Shown here: positions 16,085 to 62,278 of the stretch, piece by piece
How positions within the stretch are numbered: the first letter of the stretch is position 1
How the letters are laid out: every line of letters starts with the position of its first letter
Assembly (NCBI GenBank): GCA_034190875.2
Contig: CM067349.1
Span: 2,701,624-2,765,623, forward strand
Length of the DNA: 64,000 bases
Direction: 5' to 3'
DNA from: Urechis unicinctus
Lineage: Eukaryota; Annelida; Polychaeta; Xenopneusta; Urechidae
The notes under the pieces: generated by a model
What the model was told of the DNA's origin: nothing
The model's input: only the letters and a program-made list of their open reading frames with translations
The model's database searches: none
Translations under genes and position numbers: made by a program

Positions 16085-17440
16085 ACGGACGTCTGCTTTG
16101 TCATTACTTATGACAAACGCAATATTTGACACTACACCTACCGCCTAATACGCTGTTGATCAAATATTTGCTTGACTGCCACTGTTTCACTTGGACGGTT
16201 AAGAAACGTTTGTGTTAGTGTTTAACGGTGCAATATACATTTACCTTACAGCCAATAGCACCCGCTGACCTCGCTGGGTGCTTTTCACGCTTACATCTCA
16301 CGAAAGGAAGGCTATATTATTTACGCTATGCTACCGCCTTATGACTTATATCAATACATAAAGCGAAAATTGGCAGTTACAGTTGTCTATTATTACTCGT
16401 GGTGCGCTTTCTGCACTCACGCGGACGAGGACGATGTGTGATAGACCAAATTGTGGATCAACATTTGCCATGTCGACTCTTAATGATGTAGTATCAACTT
16501 GTCGCCAAATGGATTGTTACCTTGTGTTCTTAAAGCCAGCCGCTCGACACTTGCACTAGAATACACAAGAATATGCACCATGGATTTGGATATGAAAGGT
16601 ATATCATAACGAGGGTTTTGAAGGACACTTATAGACAAGCTGTTAAGCAGTGAGCTCATTACTCCATGCTCATTTGCACGTATCCCAACAACAATAGATG
16701 GCCACGATTATTCAAACGCTAACTTAACTGGTATGCAACATAAAGATTCAAAGCACTATTGAAAAAGAACATATTTACAGGTACTTACTGGATAGCCTGC
16801 AAGTATGTGCCATATATTATGCCGTGGGATAGGTCGACTTTTGTAGACTGATTTAACAGCGAGGTATAACGCGCTGCAGGGACAAAGGTCTTACGGTCAT
16901 TCCTAGGGTATGTCACGTTAGCAACATTTGGCTCAAAGTGCTCCTCGCACCACGAAGGCTGGTATTACACTTAAGCTGTGCAATTAACTTCAGGGTTGGT
17001 GCTGTTTGTTGTGTCTGTCAAGTAATATCGATGTCATCTCGGGGAATTTAATTTACACCCTTGCGTTAGGCCCAAAAGATAAATCCATGGATGCTATTCA
17101 TGCGAGAAATTTCAATTGGGTCGAAACTCCCCAATTGTAAAGAAGCTAGTGATTAAGTTGCTTATAATCAAGGTAGCAATTACATGCAGTTAGCACTAGA
17201 GTAGAAACTACGGCTTGGATGAGGGTGAACAAGGCGATAACCGTCATATATGCGATAATCAATAAACAAGCTTACTAGTGTTACGGGGGTTGGCATATCC
17301 AATTTAAGTTGGATTTATCTCACTTTCAAAAGCTTTGGCTTTCACGATAGTCAAGCGAGCAATATTTTTAGATGGTCGCACTAAATGAAAGTGTTATCGA
17401 GGGGTATGTTAATTGAAAGTCGTCTAATGTGTGTAATGAG
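16085..17440. repeat. Block G1 (holds the empty Polinton site)
   Basis: Continuous copy of block G. Its left part matches 36,425-36,944 and its right part matches 48,076-48,870. At about 16,624-16,640 it reads GGACACTTATAGACAAG straight through, where X2 carries the 11.1-kb element. It is therefore the unoccupied target. A 135-base stretch (16,186-16,320) is identical to 36,471-36,605. Confidence 0.92.
16257..16282. other. Conserved short hairpin
   Basis: AGCACCC and GGGTGCT form a 7-bp perfect stem with a 12-base loop. The same hairpin lies in the identical stretch of G2 (about 36,542-36,567). Its function is unknown. Confidence 0.4.
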
Positions 17441-25400: not shown

Positions 25401-26091
25401 TCAGAGGAATGCTGAGGTATGAAGTGACCTAAGAGATCATCTACAAATGTCGACGTGTGACGCGGATCCCGTCGTTAGCGTTGATGAGTGATTTTCGTTC
25501 TCCTGCCTAGTTAAGAAAAAGATCGTTTAAGGCGGTTAATGAATTATGTCTTAGTTTTTTCGAAACTGTATCTGACACGGCAACACAAACATTGGTTCCA
25601 TCAATTTTTCAAGAGACAAACGTTGGTTCGCTCTGTTATGTGCTTATCTGCACCTGCAGCGATCAGGATATTCAATAACTTTTAAGTATGGTAGAGTTTG
25701 ATGTTCCGAATGGGAGACTGGCAATGCCTGTATAACTTTTGAGAACATTTGATAAAAGTAAATTACCAGGCAAGAGCACGTAGTATAATGATGTATGTGA
25801 TGCATTCTCAGTATTTGTTTTCACTTTTCACACGGGTAATTGATCGCGGTTAGACCAATTGCTTGTGTTATTTGGCTGTTATTTTGGGTGCATTGGTACA
25901 GATCCAGTAAGAATAGTCATTATCGAATGATTTATGTATGCGAATAATTTATTCTAAAACTCAGTCGAATTAACAAACATTATAGCGACTGGTTTGTAGG
26001 TCCAAGCGCTTGCTCTGGTCCCAACATAACTAAGACTGTTAAAGGGCACAATTAAAACCGGTATTTCAATTGAATGTCTCAATGTCTCATA

Positions 26092-26095
<4 letters not shown>
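22430..26095. repeat. Block H1
   Basis: Matches H2 at 57,740-61,090 from AGCAGTTGAAGTTCGACT to AATGTCTCATAT. The stretch 22,801-22,903 is identical to 58,112-58,214 (103 bases). It is followed directly by a (TA)n array, as is H2. Short open frames such as 22,922-23,197 continue in H2 only in part. No recognisable domain. Confidence 0.88.
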
Positions 26096-26408
<313 letters not shown>

Positions 26409-26484
26409 GTAAATTGATTATATTTTATTTGTATTCATTTTCAGGCAGCGAATCGCAATCCGTATGACTTGCTCATGATTAAAT

Positions 26485-35250: not shown

Positions 35251-36424
35251 TGTAGGGTTACATCATAACGGGATGTGGGACGTCATACCAAAGATTCCTC
35301 AGGATACATGTAAACAGACGCATCAATACAAATGCGGTTCATAACTTCGATCTGCGAATATGAATAATGGTGATTCTCAAATGCCTCGTGGTTTATTCAA
35401 CTTTCATCATATTGCAATGATATCAAAATATTGTTCGCGCAGTATTCTGTTGGCTCATTGTTACCTCCGTTTGTCAGGGCTCGATGCTGTAAAAAATATT
35501 CATGTGATAATTACTTGTTGCCTTCTGCAAAAGAAAGCCAAACTGAAATTACTTTTCAAGGTTCAGGCAACTTTAGTCAACTGTTATTGTTACCTGAGCG
35601 AATTATCCATATGGACGACTTGCACACATATCAGTGCTCAAAGTAACGTTAAAGCGTTTGAACATTATTAAAATTAATAGCGAAGTAGCAAATATATCCT
35701 GCATACGGATTGATGTTCCGTATAACAGAATGCAGGTGCCGACGATGTTGACGATGACTGGTGTAATACTTGGTCCAAACAATGTTAATCTATATAACAC
35801 GCGTCGAAAAGCACGTAGACCGGAAGGCTGCAATGAAAGGTACAAAAACGATACCCTGCATTTTACACATTACTACCTTTGCTTGCCGTGTCAACATCGA
35901 TGTTTCATTGTTGTTGTTGAGTTCGACCGGTGGATGATGCTACGTCTTTTTGGACGCAACAACTGACGGCGCCAGAAAATAGAACAGGTCAGGATAATGT
36001 ACAATATTCCGACACTCTTGTTGCAAATGCGATGCTCTACGGAAAACACATAGGTAATAGTTGGTTAACTGCGGACGCAGTGAACATGATACCCAATAGC
36101 GAGAGTCATATATTTCCTAGTCTCAACATTGTGTATTACCAATTACACCTCCACTTGCTGTTAGCAAGGCAGAGCTGATAATGATTATGGATGCAGCCGG
36201 TGCTTCACGAGATGCTCATTTCCTGTTGTGTTAGAGTAAAGCACCGGTTACTATAGTGATCAGGATTGATTAGCTGACGTGCTTTCTAATGACAATAGCT
36301 GTAAAGAAGTGAGTTTACATTAAAAATGTACATATATGTTGGTGCGCGCGTCTGATAATTTCAGTCATTTCACAACCATCATGCCCTTATTCGTTAGTCG
36401 CGCTTATATGGACAGTTTGTCTTT
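35251..36424. other. Inter-block stretch of X2, no gene supported
   Basis: Overlapping short plus-strand open frames occur at 35,360-36,178 (up to 110 codons). No known domain or start context is visible and there is no second copy in the window to test conservation. Confidence 0.4.
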
Positions 36425-36944
36425 AGCGTCTAATACGCTGTTGATCAAATATTTGTTTGACTGCCATTCGTTCACTTGGACGGTTAAGAAACGTTTGTGT
36501 TAGTGTTTAACGGTGCAATATACATTTACCTTACAGCCAATAGCACCCGCTGACCTCGCTGGGTGCTTTTCACGCTTACATCTCACGAAAGGAAGGCTAT
36601 ATTATCTACCCTATGCTACCGCCTTAGGACTTATATCAGTTTCTCACTCTTTGCTGTACACAACACGAAAATTGGCAGTTACAGTTGTCAATTGTTACTC
36701 GTGGTGCGCTTCCTACATTCACGCGGACGAGGACGTTGTATGTTGGACCAAACTGAGTATCAACATTTGCCATGTCGACTCTTAATGATGTAGTATCAAC
36801 TTGTCGCCAAATCACTTTATTGTTACCGTGTGTTCTTAAAGCCAGCCGCTCGTCACTTTAACTTAGCGATAAGATATACAAGAATATGCACCATGGATTG
36901 GGGTAGGAAAGTTATATAATAACGAAGGTTTTGAAGGTCACTTA
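36425..36944. repeat. Block G2, left part
   Basis: Left half of G2, ending at the Polinton insertion point. Bases 36,471-36,605 are identical to 16,186-16,320. Confidence 0.92.
36939..36944. repeat. Polinton left target-site duplication
   Basis: CACTTA. The last A may instead be the first base of the inverted end, which would make the duplication 5 bp. The same six bases occur once at the empty site in G1. Confidence 0.85.
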
Positions 36945-36955
36945 GTAGTATATAT
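36944..36955 (+). repeat. Polinton left inverted terminus
   Basis: AGTAGTATATAT. The complement of the right end reads the same for 12 bases and then diverges. This is much shorter than typical Polinton terminal repeats, so one or both ends have probably been eroded or rearranged. Confidence 0.75.
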
Positions 36956-37302
36956 AGTCGCGCCTTGGGGTAAGGGTTAGATATTGATATTTGTCCTTCT
37001 ATCTCGCATTCTTTTTTATTCACTTTATCAAAAGGGTTTGTAGGTGTACAGGCAAATGAAGGACTCTGTTTAAACCAAATTTGGTTTATTTTCTGTTTCA
37101 ATCCACAAGCAGAACACAATGTAGAAGTACGTGAGTCTCTTTTGAAGCCTATCTTGAAGTTGACGAGAGTTTCCTCAGAAACCCTCGCTTCAGTTGCAAG
37201 CTTCTTAATAGCTGTTATGCCTTTCCAGTAGCTCTTAGGTCTATAGTAGATCTTTTGCATGCGACGATCCATACAAAGTAAACGCCCGAGTCTCCAAATG
37301 AC

Positions 37303-37713
37303 CTACTTAGCACGCCTGTATGCAACCAGCCCAGTCGCGGCCATACCCAGTAATATGAACGCCATCTTAAGCCCTTTTTGACCATCTGAGGGCTCGTAGA
37401 AGCTGCAGCTGCATCTCAGAGCCCTGCTGGTCAACGTAATAAGGGAGTACTCACACATAGTCTCGTCCGCATCCTAAAAAGTATGCTTGGCATGTCCCTG
37501 GCGGCGCAGATGCTCACTGATGAAGTCTAAACGCTCAGTCCGCTTCTTGGCCCATGCTGCCTGAGCAGATTGAAGCTACTTGATTGCTATATCATGGCGT
37601 TTAAGCTCCGAGTCCACTTGGCTGCCTCGTTATTTAGAGAATAAAAAGTTGCTCCCAGAGAATGCAAGGGCGTTAACAAGAGCACCCCCAACAAGTAGCG
37701 CGAGTGTGGCCAT
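37303..37713 (-). pseudogene. Small conserved Polinton membrane-type ORF 1 (three in-frame stops)
   Basis: A 137-codon frame starts MATLALLVGGALVNALAF, a hydrophobic N-terminus with an LVGGA-type segment. A charged coiled-coil-like middle follows (KKRTERLDFISEHLRRQGH). It ends with a second hydrophobic stretch, MAFILLGMAATGLVAYRR, and a basic tail. Three in-frame stops interrupt it at about codons 28, 47 and 79. I recognise the arrangement from capsid-linked Polinton clusters but know no assigned function. A membrane-associated virion or assembly role is inference. Its ATG overlaps the stop of the upstream ORF in a TAATG arrangement, suggesting translational coupling or tight packing. Confidence 0.7.
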
Positions 37714-37946
37714 TACTTCAGTATATCAACTGGTAAGATTCCTTGTTTAATTAGCATATCCTTTGTGGCCATAGCTAGTGATACATCGGCAATAGCCAGG
37801 TTCCGTGGGGTGAAATCCAGACGTGGCACCCCACCACCCAGAGCCATCTTAGCAAGCTTGGCATAACCTATTCAAATACTGGAAACAACTGCACTGTGGT
37901 ACAGAGCGTTGACGAGCATTTTTCCATCAGTAATTGGCGTTGTCAT
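37713..37946 (-). pseudogene. Small conserved Polinton ORF 2 (one in-frame stop)
   Basis: Seventy-eight codons including the stop, beginning MTTPITDGKMLVNALYHSAV. An internal TGA lies at codon 25, where a hydrophobic segment would run on, followed by a conserved-looking half (LDFTPRNLAIADVSLAMATK) ending VDILK. One hydrophobic helix is likely near residues 17-35. The TAA stop overlaps the next ATG by one base pair step (TAATG). It starts one base after the stop of ORF 3, so the three genes form a compact minus-strand cluster downstream of the ATPase. Function unknown; the family is recognised only as a companion of Polinton capsid genes. Confidence 0.7.
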
Positions 37947-37947
37947 C

Positions 37948-38335
37948 TTACTCCAAATAAAACGGATCCTTTAAATGAGCGTCCGGAGGCTTTTGTACCG
38001 CAACCGGTTTAGGGGGTGCGGCTAGTTTTTGCTTGTAGCATTACAATGCTAGTCCAAACACCCCAACGCCGCCGACAACCAAAGGTGCGTCCAATGTTGG
38101 CCACGCCCACCTTTCCGGAGACTTGCTCGTTGATGTTGGCTCGATAGAATTATCTCTAGCATCTGTAAGCGCGGCCTTAGCCTCTCGGAGCTCTCTCACA
38201 AGCATATGTGGATTGTCTTTTCGAGCTGTATCACCTTTTCGTCCTGCCGCAAACTTTTTAGCGTTTTTTTGTAGTGGTCGCTGACGTTATCTCCACCGGT
38301 GTAATCTCCCCTTGATTCGTGTTTGTTTCTTCCAT
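37948..38335 (-). pseudogene. Small conserved Polinton ORF 3 (frameshift plus stop)
   Basis: Starts MEETNTNQGEITPVEITS, then loses frame within an A-rich run at about codon 23. In the neighbouring frame it continues with basic/charged sequence (MLVRELREAKAALTDARD), a Pro/Ser linker and a single hydrophobic anchor (APLVVGGVGVFGLAL), then an internal TAA and a tail ending LKDPFYLE. The length of 388 bp is not a multiple of three, in agreement with one indel. It looks like a small single-pass protein with a charged cytosolic or virion-internal domain. It lies 3' of the 22-bp tandem repeat array, which separates it from the ATPase gene. Confidence 0.7.
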
Positions 38336-38376
38336 GTTTACTTACTAAATTTATTTTTCCAATTGACAGCTCTTAG

Positions 38377-38486
38377 TAAGCACCTGTTATAGCAGAGTTA
38401 AGCACCTGTTATAGCGTAGTTAGGTACCTGTTATAGCGGAGTTAAGCACATGCTAAAGCGGAGTTAAATACATACTATAGCACGCA
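38377..38486. repeat. Five-copy 22-bp tandem repeat inside the Polinton
   Basis: Units of the type TAAGCACCTGTTATAGCGGA plus GT, five copies with growing divergence to the right. They lie between the ATPase stop (38,531) and the start of small ORF 3 (38,335), the only sizeable non-coding gap in the minus-strand cluster. A promoter, enhancer or 3'-end role is possible but not shown. Confidence 0.85.
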
Positions 38487-38530
38487 AGTGGTGTCTTCCT
38501 GTCCTTCATATATCTACATTTCCGGTGCAA

Positions 38531-39034
38531 TTAGGTTCCGTTCCCCCGGACTTTGTCTCCACTAGTCGTGTCCTGTTCATGAAGTTTATCAATAATGGTA
38601 TCAGGATCCATGAATATACTTATACGCCTTCGAGCTTCAAACTTCTGCACCGGTAGCCAGATGAAGAAACGTTCCTCCTTGGTTGGAATCACATCATTTT
38701 CATGTAAGGCGTCTTCAAACCAGTCACGGTCCTTGGTGTGAAATAGCACCATCCAGCGAGTCTGCTCACGTAGGTCCTTTAGCACAGAGTTGTACTTTTG
38801 GGCGAGGACCCAGACACTTTGTTGCGCATGGCTGCCGCTAGGAGCCGGTTCTTTCTTCTTGGTTGGGATCTTTGTTGCCGAATAGTCATCAATAATGTAC
38901 AGGGTTGGATCGCCCTTAAAACAACGGTATAAAGCCCTCAAGTGGTCATGGAGCCGCTCCCCTGGATCAATGACGTAGACCTCTGAATCATCCCACATCC
39001 ATGACCGCGACTGATAGGCCTTGTTGAAACCTAT
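38531..39034 (-). pseudogene. Polinton packaging ATPase, C-terminal part
   Basis: Encodes the Walker B half of an FtsK/HerA-superfamily (A32-like) packaging ATPase: LYIIDD is the Walker B motif (38,879-38,905 region), followed by SVWVLAQKYNSVLKDLREQTR, characteristic of the sensor region. The frame runs upstream to the exact edge of the inserted foldback element at 39,035. Sequence near the C-terminus (after about VIPTKEER) departs from the expected helical end and suggests local frameshifting. In intact relatives the enzyme uses ATP to pump DNA into the capsid. Here it is separated from its Walker A half by 1.1 kb and cannot work. Confidence 0.85.
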
Positions 39035-40129
39035 TGTTGAGTGTCATTAGTACATTATGCCACAACCTTGTCCATCGTCATAACGTGCCCCTCTCAGTCA
39101 TGCCCACGAGTGACCTTCGTGTCACCTCACCCCCTGTGCTCATACATACCCCATATTTAATAGCCACGCCCATCCCCCAGTCGTCTGACCAGGCTAAGGC
39201 ATGTCATCAAATTGTTCTGGCGCCTTCCGGCAATGAACAATATCTTCAACACTTGACCTCAAATTATCGGGCAGTCTTGCCACTTCGCCAATAGACTCGA
39301 CTAGCTCCTGAACTGAATCCTCATACAATTTATGCAATTTCACGCAGCACTTACGAAAACATTCATTACGTGACTTGTCATAACGCATCTGACAAAACTC
39401 ATAGTCAGCCCGCGCTAATGCCACACGCGAACTCGCTCTGTTATACCTCTCCTGTGGCAACTTATAATTTTCCTTCACGCATTCATGATGACGCACAACT
39501 ACATTCAAACGACTGGAACACTGATCTATTTGTTTATGAATCCTGCGTGTGAGAACTTCACATTGATTTTGCAAAACTTCAATTTTCAATGACAAACCCA
39601 TTTGAACCGACCATGGAAAAATTCCAAGAGGAAATAGAATAAATGGAATATTTAAAAACCTGTACTTACAATTTGGTAGCCAGAATCGAGTGGATTCTTC
39701 ACCAGATGTCGTATCGCTAACTGTGGTGTGGGATGTGCGCCACGTGCTTGAGGATGTTGATGAAAGAACACGAACGGCAGGCGTAGGGTTTAGAAGAAAC
39801 TTAAACTTTATTGATAACTATGACTTTAGAATTTAAGATGGAACTTTGCCAAAAAGATGGATAGAGAAGTGTCGAGCTCGGAGGCCAGGTTGGAACTGAA
39901 TTTTAAAGGTTAAAACGATTCCCGCGACGACTCAGGCACGCTATCCCAATTCTCATTGGACATGCCATAGCCTGGTCAGAGGACTGGGGGATGGGCGTGG
40001 CTATTAAATATGGGGTATGTATGAGCACAGGGGGTGAGGTGACACGAAGGTCACTCGTGGGCATGACTGAGAGGGGCACGTTATGACGATGGACAAGGTT
40101 GTGGCATAATGTACTAATGACACTCAACA
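39035..40129 (-). mobile_element. Foldback insertion inside the ATPase gene
   Basis: A 1,095-bp insert with 171-bp inverted repeats (39,035-39,205 and 39,959-40,129) differing at only two positions by eye, so young. Read on the minus strand, the right arm and following sequence resemble an LTR: TG start, TATTTAA box, CAATAAAG signal near 39,805 and a possible ...CA end near 39,705, followed by a TGG that could begin a primer site. The left arm would then be an inverted LTR piece. A clean target duplication is absent; ATACGT and ATAGGT near the two edges are an imperfect candidate. Alternatives are a non-autonomous DNA transposon with long inverted ends, or a rearranged LTR element. Confidence 0.8.
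39194..39601 (-). CDS. Hypothetical 135-residue coiled-coil-like protein in the foldback insert
   Basis: Open frame of 135 codons with no stop, rich in charged residues and regularly spaced leucines (VLQNQCEVLTRRIHKQIDQC, VQELVESIGEVARL), suggesting an all-helical or coiled-coil fold. Its last residues are encoded by the inner edge of the left inverted arm, so its C-terminus was probably made by the rearrangement. If the insert is an LTR element this position fits the start of a gag-like gene, but no zinc knuckle or capsid motif is seen. Function unknown. The ATG was chosen as the first in frame; a GTAAGT just upstream (minus strand, near 39,668) could also be a splice donor. Confidence 0.45.
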   Translation of the reverse strand: MGLSLKIEVLQNQCEVLTRRIHKQIDQCSSRLNVVVRHHECVKENYKLPQERYNRASSRVALARADYEFCQMRYDKSRNECFRKCCVKLHKLYEDSVQELVESIGEVARLPDNLRSSVEDIVHCRKAPEQFDDMP

Positions 40130-40297
40130 TCGACACGTATGGTGGGGCAGAGGATGTTCAAAGGCGCCGAAGAAGGGCCCTTCAATTAGGCCGAGGATGA
40201 ATACGGTTTTCCTGCATCCTGTCTGCCCACAAACAACAGCCGAACTGGTACCATCTGGAAACGTAAACTTAGTAGACTGCACTGCCGAACCTGCCAT
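40130..40297 (-). pseudogene. Polinton packaging ATPase, N-terminal part
   Basis: Begins MAGSAVQSTKFTFPDGTSSA and carries the Walker A segment GQTGCRKT at residues 24-31, in which the glycine normally before lysine is Arg, likely inactivating. After GAFEH the frame shifts and then meets the foldback insertion at 40,129. The start codon lies inside the capsid gene end, so the two genes overlap by 29 bases in different frames, an arrangement typical of compact viral clusters. Role in relatives: DNA packaging motor. Together with the part at 38,531-39,034 it would make a protein of roughly the usual 200-250 residues. Confidence 0.88.
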
Positions 40298-41539
40298 CTT
40301 TAATGTTAAGCTGTGCATCCATAACAATATACATATAGACTATCAATGCACCGGCTGCCTGTGATTTATTTGTAATCTGTATGGTGATACCCTCAGACGC
40401 ATTCTCCATGGCCCTGCTACTACCGTGCAGCTGGTCATCATCACTCGACCTAATGTCGAGCCACAGAGCATATTTACTGGTTAGGTACTCTCCTAGGGAT
40501 ACGTCCGACAATGCCAGGTCTTTTGCAGCTATTGCTACACTGGGGTCTCGTTTACTCGTTGCAGCAAAGGCCTTCTTCCCCTCATCCCACTGCTGGTAGC
40601 CACACATGCCTTGGGCATAGAGTTCATTGAGGATGCCCTCAAAGGTCACCTCAGCTTTTGTAATCTTTGGGTTGTAGAACGACTCTGTGTTCCTGGCGAA
40701 TGAGGCGTTGGCTGGGTCATCAAATAGCAGTAGGATGCAATTCATGCTGCGAGCAGGCACGTTCAAATTGATGTTACTCAATGGATCTCTTTTATTGTAC
40801 ACAAACTTCCTGTGACGAAGCACACGCTCATACAAAATTGCAAGTCGACCTGTGTACTTGGTGCGTATCATGCGGGCCAACTCTGGTTGCATAACCATGT
40901 CATACTCTAGGGAGATGCCATCAATTTTGTAGCTGGCAGCAGTGTTTCGTGAATTACGCGGTTGTAGTCTTTGAACGTGAGCTCGTATTTCAAGCCTTTC
41001 ATTAAGTGCGCTCTGGTAGAATGGCATGTGGCTCTCCAGGAGTTCAAAGTCAAGCGGAATGTAGAACCTGTTACCATACACAATTGCTACGGCCTTGTCC
41101 TCTTACTCGGTCTCATCCTTGTTTCTTGCCCCCATTTGCATCTTAGTTGTGTTTCGGTCATCTGATGTGTCAATGCCCTGTTACTGGAGGCCTTGTCCCT
41201 CCTGTGCAGTCCGTCACAAGTCGTGGTAACAGTAGTACACATCGCTGTCATCACTAGACATGACCTCATTGCCAGATTAACCACGGCGCGGCCCAATTTT
41301 TGCACAACGGTGCGGTCAAGATCAGCTGAGGTCAGCGTGATTGTAAAGTCCAACGGTGCTGTCCCTGGGGCAATGACGTCGTCTGCGCCTAGATTGGGGA
41401 AGCGAACCAGCAGTTGCTGGTTCTGGTCAGTAGTGCTTGGATTGTTTGTAATAACCACAGACTGTCACAAGCCCTTTACCCCGAGGGGTTCGACTATCCG
41501 GCGGTGTGAGTTTAGTTTGCGCCTGTAAGTACTAGACAT
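40269..41539 (-). pseudogene. Polinton major capsid protein (double jelly-roll type), broken
   Basis: Starts MSSTYRRKLNSHRR and stops after KDGRFGSAVY, about 420 codons, somewhat short for the family. Recognisable segments in order: NNPSTTDQNQQLLVRFPNLG, then the DFTITLTSADLDRTVVQ strand region, the YGNRFYIPLDFELLESHMPF stretch, LNVPARSMNCILLLFDDP, ARNTESFYNPKITKAEVTFE and a C-terminal ALIVYMYIVMDAQL strand. Disruptions: TGA at codon 25, a frameshift near 41,275, three more stops before about 41,100, and a short out-of-frame patch near 40,950-41,000 that later returns to frame. In relatives this protein forms the hexagonal capsomers of an icosahedral shell. The last 29 bases overlap the ATPase start. 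It diverges from the plus-strand gene at 41,580. Confidence 0.88.
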
Positions 41540-41579
41540 GTTGAATGCTTTATTACAATTATATCTTTGACATAGTAAC
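41540..41579. promoter_or_regulatory. Divergent intergenic gap between capsid gene and plus-strand gene
   Basis: Only 40 bases separate the two start codons. The gap is AT-rich, with TTGAATGCTTTATTACAATT-type sequence, so any promoters of the two genes must be overlapping or bidirectional. No clear TATA box was assigned. Confidence 0.35.
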
Positions 41580-42676
41580 ATGGAGTTTGATAACAGAACA
41601 TTTAACGACGCAGTGGAGGAGGATTGGCACAACGCTGGAAGAGAGGATGAGGATTGGCCCGCCGCTGAAATAGAGGACGAGACACTCCCAACTAAGAGTG
41701 CTATGGGAGGGGACATTCAGATGGATACGTCTATACCACAGGGAGGGCGATTAGTTATAGGCGCTGTCAATGATTATTATGATGTATTGGCTGCAAAAAG
41801 GTTGCAGACCCCGTCCGCGATTATACAAAGTTTGACCTTGTTGAAGGAGAGTTACGTTTGAAGGACTACCCTGACATAAGTATTACAAATTCTCGTACTT
41901 AAGCACCGCTTTCACTTCAAACCATAGCTAGTAGAAGGGGATGGGGGAAAAGGACGTCCGATGGTTTGGGGTTTACTGTGTGGCCCTGAAAAGTGGTGTC
42001 ACAAAAGGAAGCATCAGGCTCTCTAAGGCTGCTAAAGCCGCAGAGTATTTAGAAATGAGCGGCCCTGAAGCCATGACAGAGGAATGTGGTGTGGAAGAAA
42101 AAAGCTTCATAGAGGGCGTTCATAACGCCATAGAATACCTAGGTGCACAAACAGACAACGAACTACCACTCAGAGAGCTTATATGGCTTGACAAGGCTAT
42201 GCAGACCAAGAGGGGTAAGCTTGTCAACAACCTGGCTAAGATAACTGAGATAGGATGGGATATAGACCAGCGGGAAGCTAAAATGGCAAGCTTGGAGGAG
42301 GAAGGGAGGGGTGATAGTCGAGCATGAAAATTCCAAGCAAATGAGATAACAGAGCTGCAGGACCTGCGGCGTGTCCGTGTTGAGGCTGCCTCTGTTAACC
42401 GTGAACGTCTGCGAACCCAAATTAACCGCATCAGGGAAACGAGGACACAACGCTAGCTGAGCGTGTACGCACCCTGTTCGGGAGCAAGGCATAACAATCG
42501 CCTCCATCCTCATTGCGATTGGATTGGCAATCTCGATCTTGGTAGTTGCTTTGACGGGTGGAGGGGCACTAGTTCAACCCCTGCACCAACACTGACGCCA
42601 GCTGATAAGCCTGGTGTAAAGGAATTGATTAAAAAAACAGCTGAACTCATTGAACACCGACGAGCGTATTATTGAA
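41580..42676 (+). pseudogene. Conserved Polinton plus-strand gene (acidic N-terminus, coiled coil, membrane anchor), broken
   Basis: Starts MEFDNRTFNDAVEEDWHNAG, a strongly acidic N-terminal region. It continues through VNDYYDVLAAKR, DLVEGELRLKDYPD, APLSLQTIASRRG and KSGVTKGSIRLSKAAKAA. A helical stretch (RGKLVNNLAKITEIGWDID and following) then leads to a hydrophobic anchor (GITIASILIAIGLAISILVV) and a GVKELIKKTAELI tail. The pieces lie in several frames with stops at about 41,862 and 41,900 and after 42,327, so it is a pseudogene. I recognise the gene as a regular partner of Polinton capsid genes but not its assigned name. A virion or membrane-associated role is inference. The usual longer C-terminus is absent; sequence changes near 42,650, shortly before the gypsy insertion. 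Confidence 0.75.
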
Positions 42677-42699
42677 CGTGAGGGTGGTGAGAAAGCGTT
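42653..42699 (+). pseudogene. Coiled-coil Polinton ORF, piece left of the gypsy insertion
   Basis: Short charged stretch (TDERIIEREGGEKA) ending at the GCGTT target duplication. It is the likely left shoulder of the coding-like sequence that resumes at 47,608 on the other side of the gypsy element, although the two sides are not in one frame. It may instead be the end of the preceding gene. Confidence 0.4.
42695..42699. repeat. Gypsy target-site duplication, left
   Basis: GCGTT, repeated directly after the 3' LTR at 47,608-47,612. Five base pairs is the usual size for this superfamily. Confidence 0.92.
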
Positions 42700-42885
42700 T
42701 GTAGCATATTCAATTGCAACGTTATGATCAGATGTTCAACTTGTCGTAAAAATCATGTTAGCCGGCAAGTTGCCGTCAATCGTTCGAGGCCAGGTTGGTG
42801 GTGATGTGGCATAAAATAAAACGCAACGGACTTGTGAACATCAAGAGTGTTTCCATCAAGAGTGTTTTCCTGTAGAAACATTACA
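42700..42885 (+). repeat. Gypsy 5' LTR
   Basis: 186 bp, TG at the start and CA at the end, with an AAATAAAAC stretch near 42,812 that could serve as TATA or polyadenylation signal. Five transitions relative to the 3' LTR. Confidence 0.95.
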
Positions 42886-42886
42886 T

Positions 42887-42902
42887 TGGTGGCAGCGGTA
42901 AC
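42887..42902 (+). promoter_or_regulatory. Candidate primer-binding site
   Basis: TGGTGGCAGCGGTAAC begins two bases after the 5' LTR, the normal position for pairing with a tRNA 3' end. The tRNA was not identified. Confidence 0.6.
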
Positions 42903-43166
42903 AAAGAACCTCGCTAGCCTTCGGAGTACACAGCAAAGGTGCTTCCGTAAGGTGCAAAAGAGACAAATTTGTTAATGAGCAAGTTTTAAAACCGATTGCT
43001 GTCAAATGCCAACGCCGGTTGGAAATTGATCGACAGACGAAAGGAGGAATATGCAACTGCCTAGGACGCTTCGTTCCAGCTGTGCTCTTGCTTAGTATGA
43101 CAATGGTGCGCTACCACAACTAGACACAAACTGTAAGTGACTGAACTACCAAAGTAATTTACAGAA

Positions 43167-43961
43167 ATGGCTGAATCAATCACACCAAACATTGACTGGA
43201 ATTCGCCAGACTAAGCCGGTACACTAAATTTTTTCAAACAAAAATGCGGCCTATATTTCTCGGTAAAAAATATCCAAAGAGAAAAGCAAGTTGACCACAT
43301 ATTATTGTTTGCTGGGAATGAGAGACTAAGCATCTATAACTCATGGGGTCTAGGTGAGGATGAAGGAAAGAATCCTGAGGTGGTATGGCAGCGATTTGCA
43401 ACTCAAATTGAACCAAAGTCAAATTTTCGTGTAGCTCGTTTATACGTGCATAAGTACAGACAAAATGAAACAGAAAACATTGACTCTTTCCTGTCACGAT
43501 GTAAACTACAGGCACAGAAATGTGACTTTAACCAAAAGGAATTCAACGACAGAATCATAGAGCAAATTATTTTCGGTACCAGTCACCCAGAGCTTCAAAA
43601 ACAACTTCTCGGCAAGGGAAAAGAAATGACCCTAGATCAGACTGTGGACATATGCCGTACTTATGAAGCTGCAAACGAACAAATGAAACAGCTCGCAAGT
43701 GTCCAGTCAAATCAAAATGTACACTTGCATTCAATTCACAAAAAACCACAGACTGCCAAATGTCAGAATTGTTGCGGTCATCATGCGAGACGGAGGTGTA
43801 CTGCATACAGAACAACATGCAATAAATGTGGTAAACCAAACCACTGGCAAGCAATGTGCCGATCATCCTACCATAACAACACCATTTCTCACAGGCAAGA
43901 AGAGCCACAACCACGGTTGAGTAGAGACCAAAGACAAAACAGCAACAGGCGCACACACTAA
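43167..43961 (+). pseudogene. Gypsy Gag (nucleocapsid with two zinc knuckles), in-frame stop
   Basis: The frame starts at ATG 43,167 (MAESITPNIDWNSPD), with a TAA at codon 16, then is open to 43,961. The middle holds the typical retrotransposon Gag capsid pattern (VWQRFATQIEPKSNFRVARL, HKYRQNETENIDSFLSRCKL, FNDRIIEQIIFGTSHPELQK). The C-terminus has two Cys/His knuckles, CQNCCGHHARRRC and CNKCGKPNHWQAMC, that in relatives bind the element RNA. It would form the cytoplasmic virus-like particle. At 264 codons it is a normal size. It ends at a TAA directly in frame with the downstream protease, so the native element probably had a fused or readthrough Gag-Pol. Confidence 0.88.
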
Positions 43962-44396
43962 CGCAGTAACGTCCACTCAATAAATCAAAACGATACTAGT
44001 GATGAACTCGGTGATGAGTTCAGTGAGTTAACTATTGGAACTGTTAAGGTGTCAAGCATTAGCTCTATCAAAACAGATATAAAAGATGCAGCCTTCATTC
44101 ATATATCAGCCAAGGTTGACTACAAGAAGACAGTAATGAGAATAAAGGTAAAAGTGGACACGGGAGCTCAAGGGAACACAATACCGATTCGTATGTACAG
44201 GCAGATGTTTCCAGAAAACATCAATGATGATAGTTACCCCAACGAGCAAGACTCCAGCAGTATCGGAGTCAAGCTAACAGCATACAATGGAACTGAAATT
44301 CCACAATATGGATGAATCCAACTACCGTGCCGGTATAAACAAAAGTCATGGATACCTACAGATTTCTACATTGTCGAATCAGAGGGACCAGCGATC
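43962..44396 (+). pseudogene. Gypsy protease domain
   Basis: In the same frame as gag. Coding starts right after the TAA (NVHSINQNDTSDEL), and the aspartic protease active-site motif is VDTGAQGNTIPI at about 44,155-44,190. A TGA at 44,313 interrupts the frame after EIPQYG. The downstream half continues in frame (SWIPTDFYIVESEGPAIMGL), including the conserved ILG-type segment seen here as IMGL. In relatives it cleaves the Gag-Pol polyprotein. Confidence 0.82.
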
Positions 44397-45112
44397 ATGG
44401 GGCTACCAAGCTCACAATATCTCAATCTCGTTACCCTTCACTGCGCCATCGAGAAAAATATGCAGTCGATCAAATCAGTGGAGGATCTGAAGAGCCTATA
44501 CCCCAACCAATTTGATCGCATTGGAAATTTTCCTGGCACATATCGCATCACTTTGAAGGAAGATGCACAACCTGTTATACATGCACAGCGCAAATTTCCA
44601 ATCCAGTTAAAAGGAAAACTCAAATCTGAACTCGAAAAAATGGAGCAACTTGGCGTCACCTGCACAGTAGACGCAGCAACAGACTTGGTTAACAGCATGG
44701 TCGTGTCACACAAAGACAATGGAGACCTGCGGGTGTGTCTTGACCCCAAAGACTTATACAAAGTGCTAAAACGCACACATCACAAAACCCCAACCCTTGA
44801 GGAGATTACATACAAGCTACAAGGTGGACAGTACTTCAGCAAAATGGACGCCAAAAACGGCTACTGGTCAGTTAAATTAGATGACATGAGCTGCCGACTC
44901 ACAACATTCAATACACCATTTGGCAGATACTGCTACAAACGCATGCCTTTCGGTTTGGTAATGTCGCAAGATGTATTTCAGCAAAGGATGGACCAAATAT
45001 TAGAGCATTGTCCAGGTACAATAAGCATCGCAGATGATGTAGTAGTCTTCGGACGTACCGAACAGGAACATGATAACAACCTCCATAACTTTATGCCAAG
45101 AGCTGCACAAAA
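44397..45112 (+). pseudogene. Gypsy reverse transcriptase, main part
   Basis: Long open stretch with RT motifs in order: VVSHKDNGDLRVCLDPKDL, QYFSKMDAKNGYWSVKLDD (first catalytic Asp region), TTFNTPFGRYCYKRMPFGL and the catalytic ISIADDVVVFG box at about 45,022-45,054. It is continuous with the protease frame. Near 45,112 the frame is lost at the start of the thumb and connection region. The family copies element RNA into DNA inside particles. Confidence 0.92.
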
Positions 45113-45420
45113 TGGTATTCAACAGCGCAAAATGTGTTATCAAAGAACCTCAAATCAAATTCTTTGGTGCTCTCTATGACAACGAAGGCATACATCCGGA
45201 TCCCACTAAAGTAGAAGCTATTAAAGCCATTAGTGCCCCAACTAACAAAAAACAACTTCAAGAATTTCTTGGGTTAGTCACTTACATGGGGACATTTATT
45301 CCCAACTTATCATCACACACTGCCAATCTGCGCCAACTGTTGAAGTCTGACATTGAGTTTGAATGGTGCGAATCTCACCAATTATCATTTCAACAAGTTC
45401 AGGACATTTATCTGCAGTGA
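45113..45420 (+). pseudogene. Gypsy RT thumb/connection, shifted frame
   Basis: Continues RT in the next frame: VFNSAKCVIKEPQIKFFGAL, DPTKVEAIKAISAPTNKKQL and FLGLVTYMGTFIPNLS, typical of the gypsy RT C-terminal subdomain. Ends at a TGA at 45,418 after a second frameshift near 45,395. Confidence 0.88.
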
Positions 45421-45851
45421 AGTTACACTGGCGTTCTTCAACCCAAACAAACCAACAACAATTCAAGTTGATGCATCCATGAAAGGACTGGGGGCTGCCC
45501 TTATCCAGGACAACAGACCAATAACTTTTGCGTCCAAATCACTATCTGAAACAGAGCAGAGATATGCAAATATAGAACGGGAAATGCTCGCTGTAGTGTT
45601 TGGATGCGAGCGATTTTACACATACGTGTATGGAAGGCCATTCCTTGTGGAAAGTGACCACAAACCATTAGAGATGATATAACTCAAAAACCTGAGAGCA
45701 GCTCCACCGAGACTACAAAGAATGCTGCTCAGGCTGCAGAGCTTTGATATGACTATCAAGTACAAGGCCGGAAAAGACATGATCATGGCTGATAGTTTAT
45801 CACGACTACCATCACCTTGCAACACACACATCAACCTAAAATCTTCAGGTT
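45396..45851 (+). pseudogene. Gypsy RNase H
   Basis: Starts after a frameshift. Catalytic residues are visible: Asp in TIQVDASMKGLGAALIQ, Glu in ANIEREMLAVVFG and Asp in FLVESDHKPLE. A TAA at 45,680 interrupts the frame. The downstream tether KYKAGKDMIMADSLSRLP, usual between RNase H and integrase, follows in the same frame and stops at a TAA near 45,849. Confidence 0.9.
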
Positions 45852-45857
45852 AACTTC

Positions 45858-46256
45858 GTGCAGTTCACCGAGGAAAAAGTTAACCAACTTAGAAGTGCGA
45901 CACAACGTGACCCAGTTATGACTACACTCGTGCAAACTATCACTGAGGGCTGGCCCGATAGAATGAAAGATCTGCCAACACCATTACGCCTGTATTGGTC
46001 CTTCTTCGATGAGATGTCAGTTGAGAATGGACTGGTTTTAAAAGGTGAACATGTGGTGATTCCTCGATCTATGCAGAAATACATTCGTGAGAAGATACAT
46101 GACGGACATCAGGGCATGGAAAAATGCAAATTGAGAGCCAAGGACTGTGTTTATTGGCCTGATATCAATAAAGAAATAGAAGCCAGAACAAAACAATGCA
46201 AAACGTGTCAGCATTATCAGAGGTCACAGGCCATTAAAAACACTGATCCCTCATGA
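45858..46256 (+). pseudogene. Gypsy integrase, zinc-binding N-terminal domain
   Basis: Open frame with the HHCC zinc module: the histidines lie in IHDGHQGMEKCKLRAKDCVYW and the cysteines in CKTCQHYQRSQ. Preceded by QFTEEKVNQLRSATQRDP, a typical linker. Lost at a TGA at 46,254, with a frameshift just before the catalytic core. Confidence 0.9.
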
Positions 46257-46674
46257 AATACCAAATCGACCATGGCAGGTGGTAGGGACAGATCTATTCC
46301 ACTTTGAGGGAGACACTTACCTCATTATTGCTGACTATTTCTCGAAATTCTCATTTATCAGGAAAATGCCTAATAACTGTACAAGCCAAGCTGTTGTCAT
46401 CGCGACCAAACACATATTCTCAGAGCAAGGTGTATCTGAGAAAGTCATAAGTGACAATGGCAGACAGTATGACTCGGAGGTCTATAAAAACTTTGCCACG
46501 TATTGGTCATTCAAACATACAACCAGTTCTCCGCATTACCCTCAGTCTAACGGTCTCATCGAAAGAACTATACAGACAGTAAAAAACAGCCTGAAAAGCA
46601 AAGATGAGCGGATCAGACCCATACATGAGCCTTCTTTGTTTACGATCTACACCCCTGGACCATTCACTACCTAG
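46257..46674 (+). pseudogene. Gypsy integrase catalytic core
   Basis: DDE-type core with all three acidic positions in place: WQVVGTDLFHFEGDTYL (first Asp), EKVISDNGRQYDS (second Asp) and QSNGLIERTIQTVKN (Glu). The frame shifts near 46,610-46,625 and the residual frame ends at 46,674. In relatives it inserts the cDNA with a 5-bp target duplication, matching GCGTT here. Confidence 0.92.
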
Positions 46675-47196
46675 CCCGGCAGAACTTCTGTACCATAGGA
46701 AGAAGATCAGAGGAAAGTTACCCGTACACATCCCGAACCACGCTGACCTCAAAGATCAAGTGTATGAAAAGCTAAAACAGAATCAAGATGCTCAGAAGCA
46801 GCGCTTTGACCAGCATGCTATTGATCTACCACCCTTGATAACTGGTCAGAATGTCCTCACGCAAGATGTTAGAAATGGTTCTTGGATGCCTGCTACAGTT
46901 TTGAGCAAATGTGAGGAACCACGTTCATATGTTATAGAAACCCCAAATGGATCCACTCTTCGGAGGAATATGAAGGTCCAGATTCACAAAAACAAATACA
47001 ATTCAGCTCTGACCCAATTATTCCTGCTCCACTAATGCCCATCAGCACCCCGGACACAACTGAACACAAAGAACAATCGGTTCCAATAACACAACCTCCC
47101 AACACGCCTCAAGACCGAACGCTTACAGACAATACGGACCAAAATCGTACCAGATATGGACGCATGATAAAGAAACCAGATAGACTGGCTATGTGA
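46604..47196 (+). pseudogene. Gypsy integrase C-terminal region
   Basis: After a frameshift the sequence resumes with YMSLLCLRSTPLDHSLPSPA, ELLYHRKKIRGKLPV and a C-terminal chromodomain-free tail with NGSWMPATVLSKCEEPRSYV, typical of this lineage. A last frameshift near 47,000 leads to the end RYGRMIKKPDRLAM, stop at 47,194. The following bases to 47,346 are non-coding. Confidence 0.85.
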
Positions 47197-47346
47197 ACTA
47201 TATGTGTCATAATGTTATAAGCGACCCACAAATCACAACGTTATATTGTTGAACACTAGTAATTTCTTCAAAAGATCAATTATTCAACACACATAATGTT
47301 CCTTGAATGGTTATGACTATCATCTAGTTGAAATGCAGCTTCCTCT

Positions 47347-47358
47347 GAGAAAGAGGGA
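47347..47358 (+). promoter_or_regulatory. Polypurine tract
   Basis: GAGAAAGAGGGA abuts the first TGTAGCAT at 47,359 and would prime plus-strand synthesis. Its position means the 3' LTR formally starts at 47,359, not at 47,422. Confidence 0.8.
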
Positions 47359-47421
47359 TGTAGCATATCCAATTGCAACGTTATGATCAGATGATTAACT
47401 TGTCGTAAAAGTTGCCGTCAT
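47359..47421 (+). repeat. Partial LTR duplication
   Basis: 63 bp equal to the first part of the LTR with an internal 17-base deletion, placed directly before the full-length 3' LTR. The 5' LTR has no such duplication. Confidence 0.9.
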
Positions 47422-47607
47422 TGTAGCATATCCAATTGCAACGTTATGATCAGATGTTTAACTTGTCGTAAAAATCATGCTAGCCGGCAAGTTGCCGTCA
47501 ATCGTTCAAGGCCAGGTTGGTGGTGATGTGGCATGAAATAAAACGCAACGGACTTGTGAACATCAAGAGTGTTTCCATCAAGAGTGTTTTCCTGTAGAAA
47601 CATTACA
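47422..47607 (+). repeat. Gypsy 3' LTR
   Basis: 186 bp, ends ATTACA directly before the GCGTT duplication. Confidence 0.95.
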
Positions 47608-47612
47608 GCGTT
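47608..47612. repeat. Gypsy target-site duplication, right
   Basis: GCGTT, copy of 42,695-42,699. Confidence 0.92.
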
Positions 47613-47808
47613 GATGTTAGATACAGATTATATGACAAAATGGATCTGGAGTGCGAACTGAGTGATATGGTGACTAAGTATGATAACCTTGTGGAACACC
47701 TGAAGGACATGGACAGAGATCTGGAGGTTGATAAACGATGATCTTATGGAGCGAGTAGAGCGTCTAAAAGGCCTCGTTAGCCGACACCTTGGCCTATGGG
47801 CACACTAG
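47613..47808 (+). pseudogene. Coiled-coil Polinton ORF, piece right of the gypsy insertion
   Basis: Reads YRLYDKMDLECELSDMVTKY and LVEHLKDMDRDLEVD, then shifts frame near 47,738 to DDLMERVERLKGLVSRHLGL, ending in a TAG at 47,806. Heptad-like spacing of hydrophobic residues and high charge suggest a coiled coil. This would be the last gene before the right end of the Polinton. No function is known to me; spike/fibre or scaffold roles are possible. Broken by the gypsy insertion and at least one frameshift. Confidence 0.5.
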
Positions 47809-48063
47809 ATCGACAACAAACTAGCCCCTCGGCCCCGTTTGTGGGGTCGGGTCCGAGGCGCCCTAGGGTGAGAACAAATCTTGTGTAAGCTGCCACGGGG
47901 TGAGTATTATATATAGTGGGGTACTGCGCCAGTACCCATATGAGATAGGTGTGCCAGAACCCATGTGAGATAGGTGTGCCAAACCCTCTCCTAGGATGTG
48001 TCCAAAACCGTTCCTCCCGCAGTGCCAGAACCCATATGAGATAGGTGAGCCAGAATCCCCATC
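47809..48063. repeat. Polinton right-end region with short direct repeats
   Basis: GC-richer stretch with three copies of a CCCATATGAGATAGGTGTGC-type motif (about 47,935, 47,960 and 48,032). Includes a TIR-like GTATTATATATAGTGGGG at 47,911. No open gene is supported. Confidence 0.65.
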
Positions 48064-48075
48064 ATATATACTACT
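48064..48075 (-). repeat. Polinton right inverted terminus
   Basis: Reverse complement of the left terminus. A similar but imperfect motif (GTATTATATATAGTGGGG) lies internally at about 47,911-47,930 on the plus strand, hinting at an older or shifted end. Confidence 0.75.
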
Positions 48076-48081
48076 CACTTA
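48076..48081. repeat. Polinton right target-site duplication
   Basis: CACTTA, followed by TAGACA as in the empty site of G1. Confidence 0.85.
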
Positions 48082-48890
48082 TAGACACGTTCTTAAGCAG
48101 TGAGCACATTACTCCATGCGCATTTGCACGTATCCCAATAACAATAGATAGCTACGATTATTTAAGCGCTAACTTGACTGGTATGCAACATAAAGATTCA
48201 AAGCACCATTGAAAAAACCCATATTTACAGTTACTAACTGCATAGCCTACAAGTATGTGCCATATTTTATGCCGTGAGATAGGTCGACTTTTTAAACTGA
48301 TTTAACAGCGAGGCATAACGCGCTGCAGGGACAGAGGTCGTACGATTATTCCTAGGGTAAGTCACGCTAGCAACATTTGGCTCAAAGTGCTCCTTGCACC
48401 ACGGAGGTTGGTATTACACTCAAGCTTTGCGATTAACTTCAGGGTTTCGGCTATTTTTTGTGTCTGTCAAGTAAAATCGATGTCATCTCGGGGAATTTAA
48501 TTTACTCTCTGACGTTAGGCTCAAATGATAAATCCATGGACGCTATTAATGCGAGAAATTTCATTTAGGTCGAAACTCCTCGATTGTAAAGTATCTAGTG
48601 ATTAAGTTGCTTATAATCAAGTTAGCAAATACATGCAGATTGCACTAGAGTAGAAACGACGGCTTGCATGAGGGTGAAGACGGCGATAACCGTCATAAAT
48701 GTGGTAATCAACAGATAAGCTCACTAATGTTATGGAGATATGCCTATGCAACTTACGCTGCATGGTTCTCACTTTCAAAAGCTTTGGCTTTGACGAAAGT
48801 CCAGCGAGCAATATATTCAGATGGTCGCTCTAAATGAGAGAGTTATCGAGGTGTATGTAAATTTCCAGTCGTTTAATGTGTGATCAATAT
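48076..48890. repeat. Block G2, right part
   Basis: Resumes the G alignment right after the element, with CACTTATAGAC matching G1 at about 16,627. It continues to about 48,870 and matches G1 to about 17,420. Confidence 0.92.
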
Positions 48891-55779: not shown

Positions 55780-55863
55780 ATATATATATTTATATATATG
55801 TATATATATATATATATATATATACATATATTTATAGATATATACAAATATATATATATAGAT

Positions 55864-55938
<75 letters not shown>

Positions 55939-56144
55939 ATATATGTTTATATGTGTGTATATATTTATAAATATAGATATATATGCATTAAGCTAGAAAA
56001 ATAAATGTATTTATGCATACTCCCTTATATATGTATTCATATTTATGTGTAAATATATATATATACATATATATATATACATGTATATATATGTTTATTT
56101 ATTATATATAGATATATACATAAAACATGCATATATAAATATAT

Positions 56145-56230
<86 letters not shown>

Positions 56231-56325
56231 TATACATATATACATATATATATATTCATATACATGGGTATATAAATATGTAATATATATTATATATATA
56301 TATATGTATATATATATATTTAAAT

Positions 56326-56409
<84 letters not shown>

Positions 56410-56412
56410 ATT

Positions 56413-56462
<50 letters not shown>
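55780..56462. repeat. (TA)n-rich microsatellite complex
   Basis: Several TA arrays with interruptions; the purest are about 56,148-56,228 and 56,334-56,406. Predicted Ile/Tyr frames are by-products of the repeat. It precedes block B2, whereas in X1 the array follows B1. Confidence 0.97.
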
Positions 56463-56464
<2 letters not shown>

Positions 56465-56479
56465 ACTTTTGGGTGGAAT

Positions 56480-56988
56480 CGCTACACGGATTTGCCCGCG
56501 CGCACGTTGTTGGTGCGTATATATTCGATAGCTTAGCAATATAGCACCGCTACATTATATACCTGGCAACCATGCTCACTGTAGAAAAATATACAACAAA
56601 ACAACAAAGCATCGGTTTGAAGGCGTCATGAGATTCCAGAAATGCTTCGACACGTATGAAATAATGTATTACATGACGTCTCGAACCTACTGCACCATGG
56701 GATAGAGTTATCTTGCATCTATATTCGCACACCCGACAAAACATGTCGTACTGCTTGAGCGCGCTGCTTAATCATGTTTGTGCTAGAAAACAATTTTTAG
56801 TATTGTTTTACTCCTCTCACGGGCAATTGATCCTTCTCAGAGGTAAAGGCTCGTATTATTTGGCTATTTTTGTCGATGCATCGATTATGATGGAGCACGA
56901 ACGATGGCCCTCAGATAATGCAAGACCACGGATAATGTTATTCAAAATAATACTTTATTCACCGTTTAATATCGGTGTTATGACATGA
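56480..56988. repeat. Block B2
   Basis: Matches B1 throughout; see the B1 landmarks. The open frame at 56,713-56,988 is not kept in B1. Confidence 0.8.
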
Positions 56989-57739
56989 AACAAAAACTGT
57001 TTGTGCTCGCCGTGACGATGATAGTGAAAGCTATATCACCGTGTTGCCAAGCATACAAATTGATGTGTCGCATCCCTGAAGAAACACTAATTCAAGCAAA
57101 TGGGGAATTCTTTATTTGTCGGCTGCTTAGTGTCTCAGAGTTCACATAATCATATTTGCAAGTTACAGAGCAGAGCTCGATAAATTTGCAATATACAGGG
57201 ATTCTATTATCCATGGGCAGTACAACTTCTAAAAATCATTGTTATCAATGCCATTAAAATTTCTTTATCGCAGCAGCTAATTGCAATACGCAAACCCTAG
57301 ATGCTATACAATATAATTTTTGCAATTATATAATCCAGCATAATGGTCTTCAACCTTTTTCTGCGAAAATTTATTCTCCTAAAGGTCAATAAATACCAAA
57401 GGTCACGTTTCTGTAAGCTGCTCATGGAAATATCTGTACCGATGTTAATACTACTAATGAAGCTTGATCATTTGTTGTAAATATTGCTTTGCGACTCGGA
57501 AATGAGACACGTGTCGTCACAGACAACCATGAGTAACAGAAACATAAAGGAACATCTTGTTCAGTTTGGCATACAATAATTATTCGCCGCGGATAGTTCC
57601 CATAAATCCATCAATTTAATACTTCATCTGTGGATCGGTAGTCATAACATGCCATATCATTTTAATAATACATACTGATCATCGTGTCAGTGGACACAAA
57701 CTAACACGTCACTTACTTTCGGAGCACCAGCCAATATTT
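56989..57739. other. X3 stretch between B2 and H2, no gene seen
   Basis: AT-rich, with short open frames only. A short match near 57,405 (TCACGTTTCT) to about 22,207 shows it belongs to the same unit. Confidence 0.4.
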
Positions 57740-60700: not shown

Positions 60701-61090
60701 GCTCTGCTGTGTGCAAATATGCACCTGTAATGATAAGAGTACTGAATAATCTTTAAGTATCGTAGAGTTTGATGTTCCGAATTGGTCTTTTAACCCGACA
60801 AGAGCACGTAGTATAAAGATGTTTGTGAAGGAAAGCAGTCTCATAATTTGTCTCATAATTTGATCGCGGTACGAGCGATTGCTTGTGTTACTTGGCTGTG
60901 ATTTTGCATGCATTGCCACAGATAAGGTCATTACCAAAGGTCGGATGCTAGCGAATGATTTAATCCAAAACTCAATCTAATTCAGGAACTTTTCTGTCCA
61001 AGCGATCGTTCTGGTCCAAACATAACGAAGACTTTTGAGTGCACAAATAAAACAGGTATTAGAATATAATGTATCAATGTCTCATATTAA
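57740..61090. repeat. Block H2
   Basis: Matches H1 throughout, with a 103-base identical core. H2 has 30 bases near 58,407-58,440 that H1 lacks, while H1 has a longer insert at about 23,240-23,430. No gene supported. Confidence 0.88.
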
Positions 61091-61185
61091 GTAAACTTGA
61101 ATACCTTAAAGAGCAGAATATACAATGTACATAACTTTCAGTACCTACACACAATAATACACATTTTCATGATTGTCATGTGTGT

Positions 61186-61335
<150 letters not shown>

Positions 61336-62240: not shown

Positions 62241-62278
<38 letters not shown>

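Follow-up and report, generated by a model that had tools for sequence, protein, structure and literature searches.

Background

For Mavericks, the accessible parts of PMC8097293 give the end motif as (AGT)2//(ACT)2 or (AG)3//(CT)3, report perfect 6-bp target-site duplications with (AGT)2//(ACT)2 ends in vertebrates, and describe 96% of vertebrate Maverick loci as eroded. The length of the duplication is typically 6 for an rve integrase according to the available portion of PMC12220804, and 5-6 bp for mavirus and Maverick/Polinton elements in the available sections of PMC8547959, which also contain comparisons with empty sites, sometimes paralogous ones, and examples of retrotransposons nested in endogenous virophage-like elements. 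Here we analyze a stretch of 64,000 nucleotides from the annelid Urechis unicinctus (assembly GCA_034190875.2, contig CM067349.1, positions 2,701,624 to 2,765,623; hereafter "the window", whose own coordinates are used below), in which an insert of 11,132 bases (36944-48075) separates the two halves of one unit, G2, of a local tandem array. In all likelihood, a Polinton of a multicopy family inserted once into G2, duplicating the sequence CACTT, and then decayed. The locus allows the states before and after a Polinton integration to be compared cleanly, as four paralogues are free of the element. An earlier sequence-only reading of the window regarded such a comparison as rarely available, but judging from the sections of PMC8547959 at hand it is already in print for mavirus-like elements.

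Insertion site and empty paralogues

Self-comparison of the window aligns the neighboring unit G1 with G2 in two blocks: 16139-16631 with 36424-36944 (87.1% identity) and 16626-17433 with 48076-48882 (87.6% identity). The two G1 halves are contiguous, and the matching G2 halves lie 11,132 bases apart. At the left junction CACTT is followed by AGTAGTATATATA (36939-36943/36944), and at the right junction TATATACTACT is followed by CACTTA (48075/48076; read further into the flank, TATATACTACT and then CACTTATAGA), while the empty copy in G1 reads GAAGGACACTTATAGAC from position 16620. The insert ends, AGTAGT//ACTACT, agree with the published Maverick motif (AGT)2//(ACT)2. Among 200,000 random breakpoint pairs in the window, the frequency of 6-bp inverted ends was 0.03% and that of 5-bp direct flanks 0.14%; as both features are rare and occur here together, at a break in homology, the chance of coincidence is small. 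The inverted ends comprise 12 bases as seen, and look short because the left terminal repeat has been replaced after 13 bases. The sequence-only reading had proposed the insert coordinates and the read-through of G1, and both are borne out by the self-comparison and the junctions; G1 aligned against the joined G2 flanks is contiguous through the site, with ~87% identity on each side. It had further proposed a Polinton/Maverick origin, an insertion that was precise and a genuine empty site in the neighboring unit, and these points are likewise supported.

To polarize the difference between the two units, 601 bases over the G1 site were compared with the whole genome (a 1.19-Gb assembly of 926 contigs). 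The six matches all fall within 2.625-2.773 Mb of C8. Three of them are G1 and the two G2 halves, and the others are further paralogues, L095 (74%), L097 (75%) and L098 (64%). L097 and L098 read through the site without the element, and L095 also lacks it, showing a 10-base gap at the site. Fusing the two flanks of G2 around one CACTT yields GGTCACTTATAGACACG; L097 reads GGTCACTTATGGACACG. Since four units (G1, L095, L097, L098) lack the element and one (G2) carries it, the insertion is the derived state. The reverse course starts from an element-bearing common ancestor of G1 and G2, with excision (precise or imprecise) or gene conversion removing the element from G1; it gains something from the sequence exchange that occurs in tandem arrays and from the fact that G1 and G2 are the closest pair. 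We nonetheless consider it extremely unlikely, because the more distant L097, L098 and L095 are also element-free, so that the empty state is older, and because G1 has no extra bases at the site. The same three paralogues answer the objection of an imprecise loss from G1, which the sequence-only reading had raised against itself.

The tandem units in the window are ~20-23 kb apart where no insert lies between them, and TATATA-type microsatellite blocks recur in the array units (3300-3720, 26030-26470, 55780-56990 and 61030-62590). The array unit preceding the window, L091 (C8:2697124-2701700), shows homology to G1 only from 16629 rightward, a point three bases inside the target site; the left part of L091 has been rearranged, and the unit is uninformative on polarity.

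Length of the target-site duplication

The sequence-only reading assumed a 6-bp duplication of which one A had been shared or lost. The empty site alone is compatible with both the 5-bp and the 6-bp reading, and the other copies of the family in this genome speak for the former. The same terminus is found elsewhere in the genome, as a genome-wide search with the termini recovered other copies with the same ends (e.g. C16, C17, C12); the matching C16 ends are 19.8 kb apart. The end pattern has 488 genome matches, 100 of them listed, and the pattern read backwards has 108. From the 100 listed places the candidates P1-P14, on contigs 1-3, were chosen by eye. P1 and P2 (inner terminal-repeat motif) and P8, P9, P11, P12 and P14 (true ends beyond the stretch fetched) were left out of the count, as was a pair on C9, where GCGGT/GCGGT fits only with one AGT at the left end; P4, with two left and two right stretches bearing the same flanks, was counted once. 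P3-P5, P7, P10 and P13 were taken in by their ends alone, and P6 encloses an integrase-region match. Nine pairs were tabulated by script, and P10 and P13, with AGTAGTATAGG- or AGTAGTATCGG-type ends, were read by eye.

An exact 5-bp duplication is present in 7 of the resulting 11 end pairs: CACTT in the window, ACATC in C12, GCATT in C17, GGAGC in P4, CACTG in P5, TCCGG in P6 and CCCTG in P10. Three more pairs (C16, P3, P13) match at 4 of 5 bases. An exact 6-bp duplication was found in none of the 11, the window pair included, and among the nine tabulated pairs mismatched combinations of left and right ends were never identical over 5 bases (0/72). Given this 5-bp fit of the genome's end pairs, no A need have been lost. 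A classical 6-bp duplication CACTTA, whose left copy later lost one A, would be in keeping with the empty site, which reads CACTTA, with the position of the lost base next to AGTAGT, and with the perfect 6-bp duplications that the accessible part of PMC8097293 links to this end motif in vertebrates. The counts above, both of the true pairs and of the mismatched combinations, make it very unlikely, and a 5-bp duplication is within the published range, as the available text of PMC8547959 allows 5-6 bp. The 5-bp duplication in the best-matched pairs is thus a small, testable fact about this group of integrases. We lean neither towards nor away from the broader proposition that a Polinton group of the host lineage, with the ends of vertebrate Mavericks, has a fixed 5-bp-stagger integrase, so that the joining distance would have changed within one group.

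Several of the ends deserve separate mention. The right end of the C12 pair carries one substitution, AGTACT for ACTACT. Both Polinton ends enclose 2.6 kb at C12:28002826 to ~28005430 and ~3 kb at C9:26555671 to ~26558699, and these short elements are perhaps non-autonomous derivatives. Some end pairs have the same or nearly the same outer flank (C4:60553654 and 61038380; C9:4457265 and 4526526; C15:63811488 and 64051817), suggesting that the element was copied along with its surroundings in segmental duplications. In the ends of L031, L039, L054 and others the end motif occurs again, reversed, ~40 bases inside the terminal repeat, making an imperfect palindrome of the tip. In the window, imperfect CCAGAACCCATATGAGATAGGTG repeats precede the right terminus (47938-48075), and similar repeats are found in several end stretches of L079-L090.

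Composition and decay of the insert

The pieces of the insert (Table 1) add up to 11,132 bases. Polinton-derived sequence accounts for 4,915 of them (44%; 36944-36956, 37171-39034, 40130-42699 and 47608-48075), and the remainder is divided among a long terminal repeat (LTR) fragment of 214 bases, a nested element of 1,095 bases and a retrotransposon of 4,908 bases. The insert is thus a composite, a decayed Polinton plus other mobile DNA: of the single 11.1-kb virus-like element described in the sequence-only reading, the Polinton origin stands and the unity does not. An automatic reading of the insert would assign the integrase and reverse transcriptase of the nested retrotransposon to the Polinton.

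Table 1. Features of the insert, its flanks and the empty site (window coordinates)
Feature	Position	Strand	Evidence
Empty target site CACTT, tandem unit G1	16626..16630	+	Alignment through the site
Left copy of the 5-bp target-site duplication CACTT	36939..36943	+	Junction read, alignment
Left Polinton terminal repeat, remaining 13 bases (AGTAGTATATATA)	36944..36956	+	Same terminus in relatives
LTR fragment of 214 bp from another LTR family, occupying the expected place of the integrase core and of the missing left terminal repeat	36957..37170	-	Genome matches
N-terminal remnant of the Polinton integrase gene	37171..37272	-	Start of relatives' matches; continuation in L007
A32-like packaging ATPase gene (Polinton), C-terminal part	38531..39034	-	Homologues; Pox_A32 in the two scanned
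Nested element of 1.1 kb, interrupting the ATPase gene; inverted repeats of 171 bp, 98.8% alike	39035..40129		Sequence
ATPase gene, N-terminal part, Walker A-like GQTGCRKT	40130..40339	-	Comparison by eye with P0121 and P0132
Remnant of the major capsid protein gene, fragmented over different frames	40269..41464	-	Homologues of the longest open reading frame
Polinton open reading frame region, function unassigned, common to other copies up to 42652	41571..42652	+	Genome alignments
Internal deletion junction, ~1.97 kb of the C17 copy absent	42652..42653		L105 1-81, then 2049-2097
Left 5-bp duplication GCGTT of the retrotransposon	42695..42699	+	Read from the sequence
Nested Gypsy-like LTR retrotransposon, 186-bp LTRs 97.3% alike	42700..47607	+	LTRs, Pfam domains, absent from the C17 copy
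Right 5-bp duplication GCGTT of the retrotransposon	47608..47612	+	Read from the sequence
Polinton right arm and right terminal repeat, ending in TATATACTACT	47608..48075	+	138-bp tandem-repeat stretch before the terminus
Right copy of the 5-bp target-site duplication CACTT	48076..48080	+	Junction read, alignment

Analysis of the left end reveals a replacement. The window copy lacks long terminal inverted repeats, retaining only 13 bases on its left side; in the C16 and C17 pairs each end carries ~125 bp or more of the repeat. We considered the left 226 bases as a Polinton terminal repeat and rejected this, as everything past the first 13 bases belongs to an LTR family present at unrelated sites. 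Of the 40 scored matches to the 214-bp fragment, 39 lie at other places; the family starts sharply at the same point in 8 of 9 loci aligned, and two clean 5-base duplications were read by eye in L013 (GACCC) and L014 (AAGAT). Beyond the fragment, an RVE-type integrase is represented in the window Polinton by the N-terminal remnant alone, and the sole rve match found in the insert is that of the nested retrotransposon. In L007 the sequence runs on into the rest of an integrase-like frame, with a weak rve match (E 0.0026, below the Pfam cut-off), and the next integrase piece of L007 has no rve match in Pfam; we take this frame to be a Polinton integrase also from its likeness to known ones.

The C-terminal piece of the packaging ATPase has 557 homologues, with PF04665 in 106 of the 120 listed, and Pox_A32 was named by Pfam in both homologues scanned; PHROGs gave one weak terminase match (E 0.0053). 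An A32/FtsK-like packaging ATPase, as expected of a Polinton, is present, though its gene is broken in the window. The inverted repeats of the element that splits it differ at 2 positions (Kimura two-parameter distance, K2P, 0.012); the minus strand of this element has an open frame of 207 codons (39194-39817) that Pfam does not match, and no target duplication was recognized around it. The longest capsid open reading frame has 1865 homologues, one of them named Major capsid protein (Elysia marginata, P0111). Among the few named relatives of the capsid and ATPase pieces are those from the sea slug E. marginata and from genomes of lucinid-clam symbionts. Judged from its gene remnants, the window copy should be unable to make its own integrase or capsid. 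No Pfam match to a cysteine protease or a penton protein was found in the reading-frame pieces scanned, and Rfam yielded nothing in the window at gathering thresholds.

The copy on C17 (L105) contains the same Polinton sequence without the retrotransposon: window 42651-42699 corresponds to L105 2049-2097 and window 47607 onward to L105 2092 onward, the overlap being the GCGTT duplication. Within the retrotransposon the domains follow the Gypsy order, with a zinc knuckle (just below the Pfam cut-off), RVT_1, RT_RNaseH, Integrase_H2C2 and rve. A retrotransposon-Polinton hybrid with its own reverse transcriptase was also considered and rejected, as the LTRs, the GCGTT duplication and the retrotransposon-free C17 copy identify a nested insertion. 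Immediately upstream of the 3' LTR, the start of the LTR occurs once more, as an incomplete copy (47362-47420).

A number of observations weigh against a Polinton insertion followed by decay. The evidence for the left terminus consists of the 13 terminal-repeat bases, the break in homology and the duplication, and the duplication of the eleventh end pair, P7, is poor (3 of 5 bases). The L007 integrase pieces match rve weakly or not at all, and tblastn with them against 19 end loci (L039-L057, 1.5 kb inward) found nothing. Neither the ATPase nor the capsid pieces of the window itself are matched by Pfam; two capsid homologues match Capsid_N, but below its cut-off. With regard to the double jelly-roll fold of a Polinton major capsid protein, the profile of capsid homologues gave no match beyond chance level against solved structures, and a structure model of the capsid piece was set aside as too weak (mean predicted local distance difference test score, pLDDT, 45). 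Taken together, the solved-structure searches yielded chance-level rows only (E 0.4 and 0.65). No match to a protein-primed PolB was obtained with Pfam among 30 reading-frame pieces scanned, which are part of the insert's open reading frames, some of them overlapping and some belonging to the retrotransposon.

In order to reconcile these features, we propose that a Polinton/Maverick of a many-copy family integrated once into G2 of the local tandem array, duplicating CACTT, probably by retroviral-type joining through its own integrase with a 5-bp stagger, as suggested by its ends, by the length of the duplication and by the element-free paralogues. The copy then decayed, most likely in place: the LTR fragment now occupies the position of the integrase core and of the left terminal repeat beyond its first 13 bases, ~2 kb is missing at 42652, the 1.1-kb element splits the ATPase gene, the capsid gene is frame-broken, and the Gypsy-like retrotransposon sits near the right end, the order of these decay events being conjectural. 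Between G1 and G2, K2P is 0.09 for the left flank and 0.13 for the right; for the LTR pair of the retrotransposon it is 0.028 (5 transitions in 186 bases). The simplest order is duplication of the array, entry of the Polinton into G2, and then decay and nested insertions, although gene conversion could blur these values.

Alternatively, the copy may have been defective already, i.e. deleted and equipped with the LTR fragment, when it was moved into G2 by the integrase of another copy. Its two termini and the duplication are intact despite the integrase gene being cut off, and the 2.6- and ~3-kb elements on C12 and C9 demonstrate that short forms with both ends are present in the genome. We consider this course rather unlikely in view of the two deletion joints, for which scoring covered the 40 best candidates out of 2282 and out of 3164. 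With the query 36925-37400, all 39 other matches listed start at 37168-37172, and none crosses 37171 as the window does. With the query 41400-42694, none of the 44 other rows extends past 42652, and the two sequences adjoining at that point in the window are ~1.97 kb apart in the C17 copy. As no joint-crossing relatives are found among the matches scored, both joints look private to the window copy, in agreement with decay of an initially more complete Polinton within G2.

Comparison with known systems

The nested element at 42700-47607 resembles Gypsy (Metaviridae) retrotransposons in its LTRs, its 5-bp duplication and its order of zinc knuckle, reverse transcriptase, RNase H and integrase; unlike a component of the Polinton, it is a separate insertion within the Polinton remnant. 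The endogenous mavirus-like elements with nested Ngaro, as presented in the available sections of PMC8547959, are similar to the locus described here in being virus-like DNA within a host genome and with respect to nested retrotransposons and to short duplications deduced from empty sites; they differ in host and element group, and the window has a Gypsy-like LTR element and tandem-paralogue empty sites instead. With Polinton/Maverick elements the window copy shares the AGTAGT//ACTACT ends, the A32-like ATPase, the capsid protein homology, the integrase N-terminus near the left end and the many dispersed copies in one genome. It differs from them in being reduced to ~4.9 kb of Polinton sequence without an integrase core or a detected PolB, and in its 5-bp instead of 6-bp duplication. 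The insert is a well-documented, degraded copy of a known kind, and the type of insertion is ordinary.

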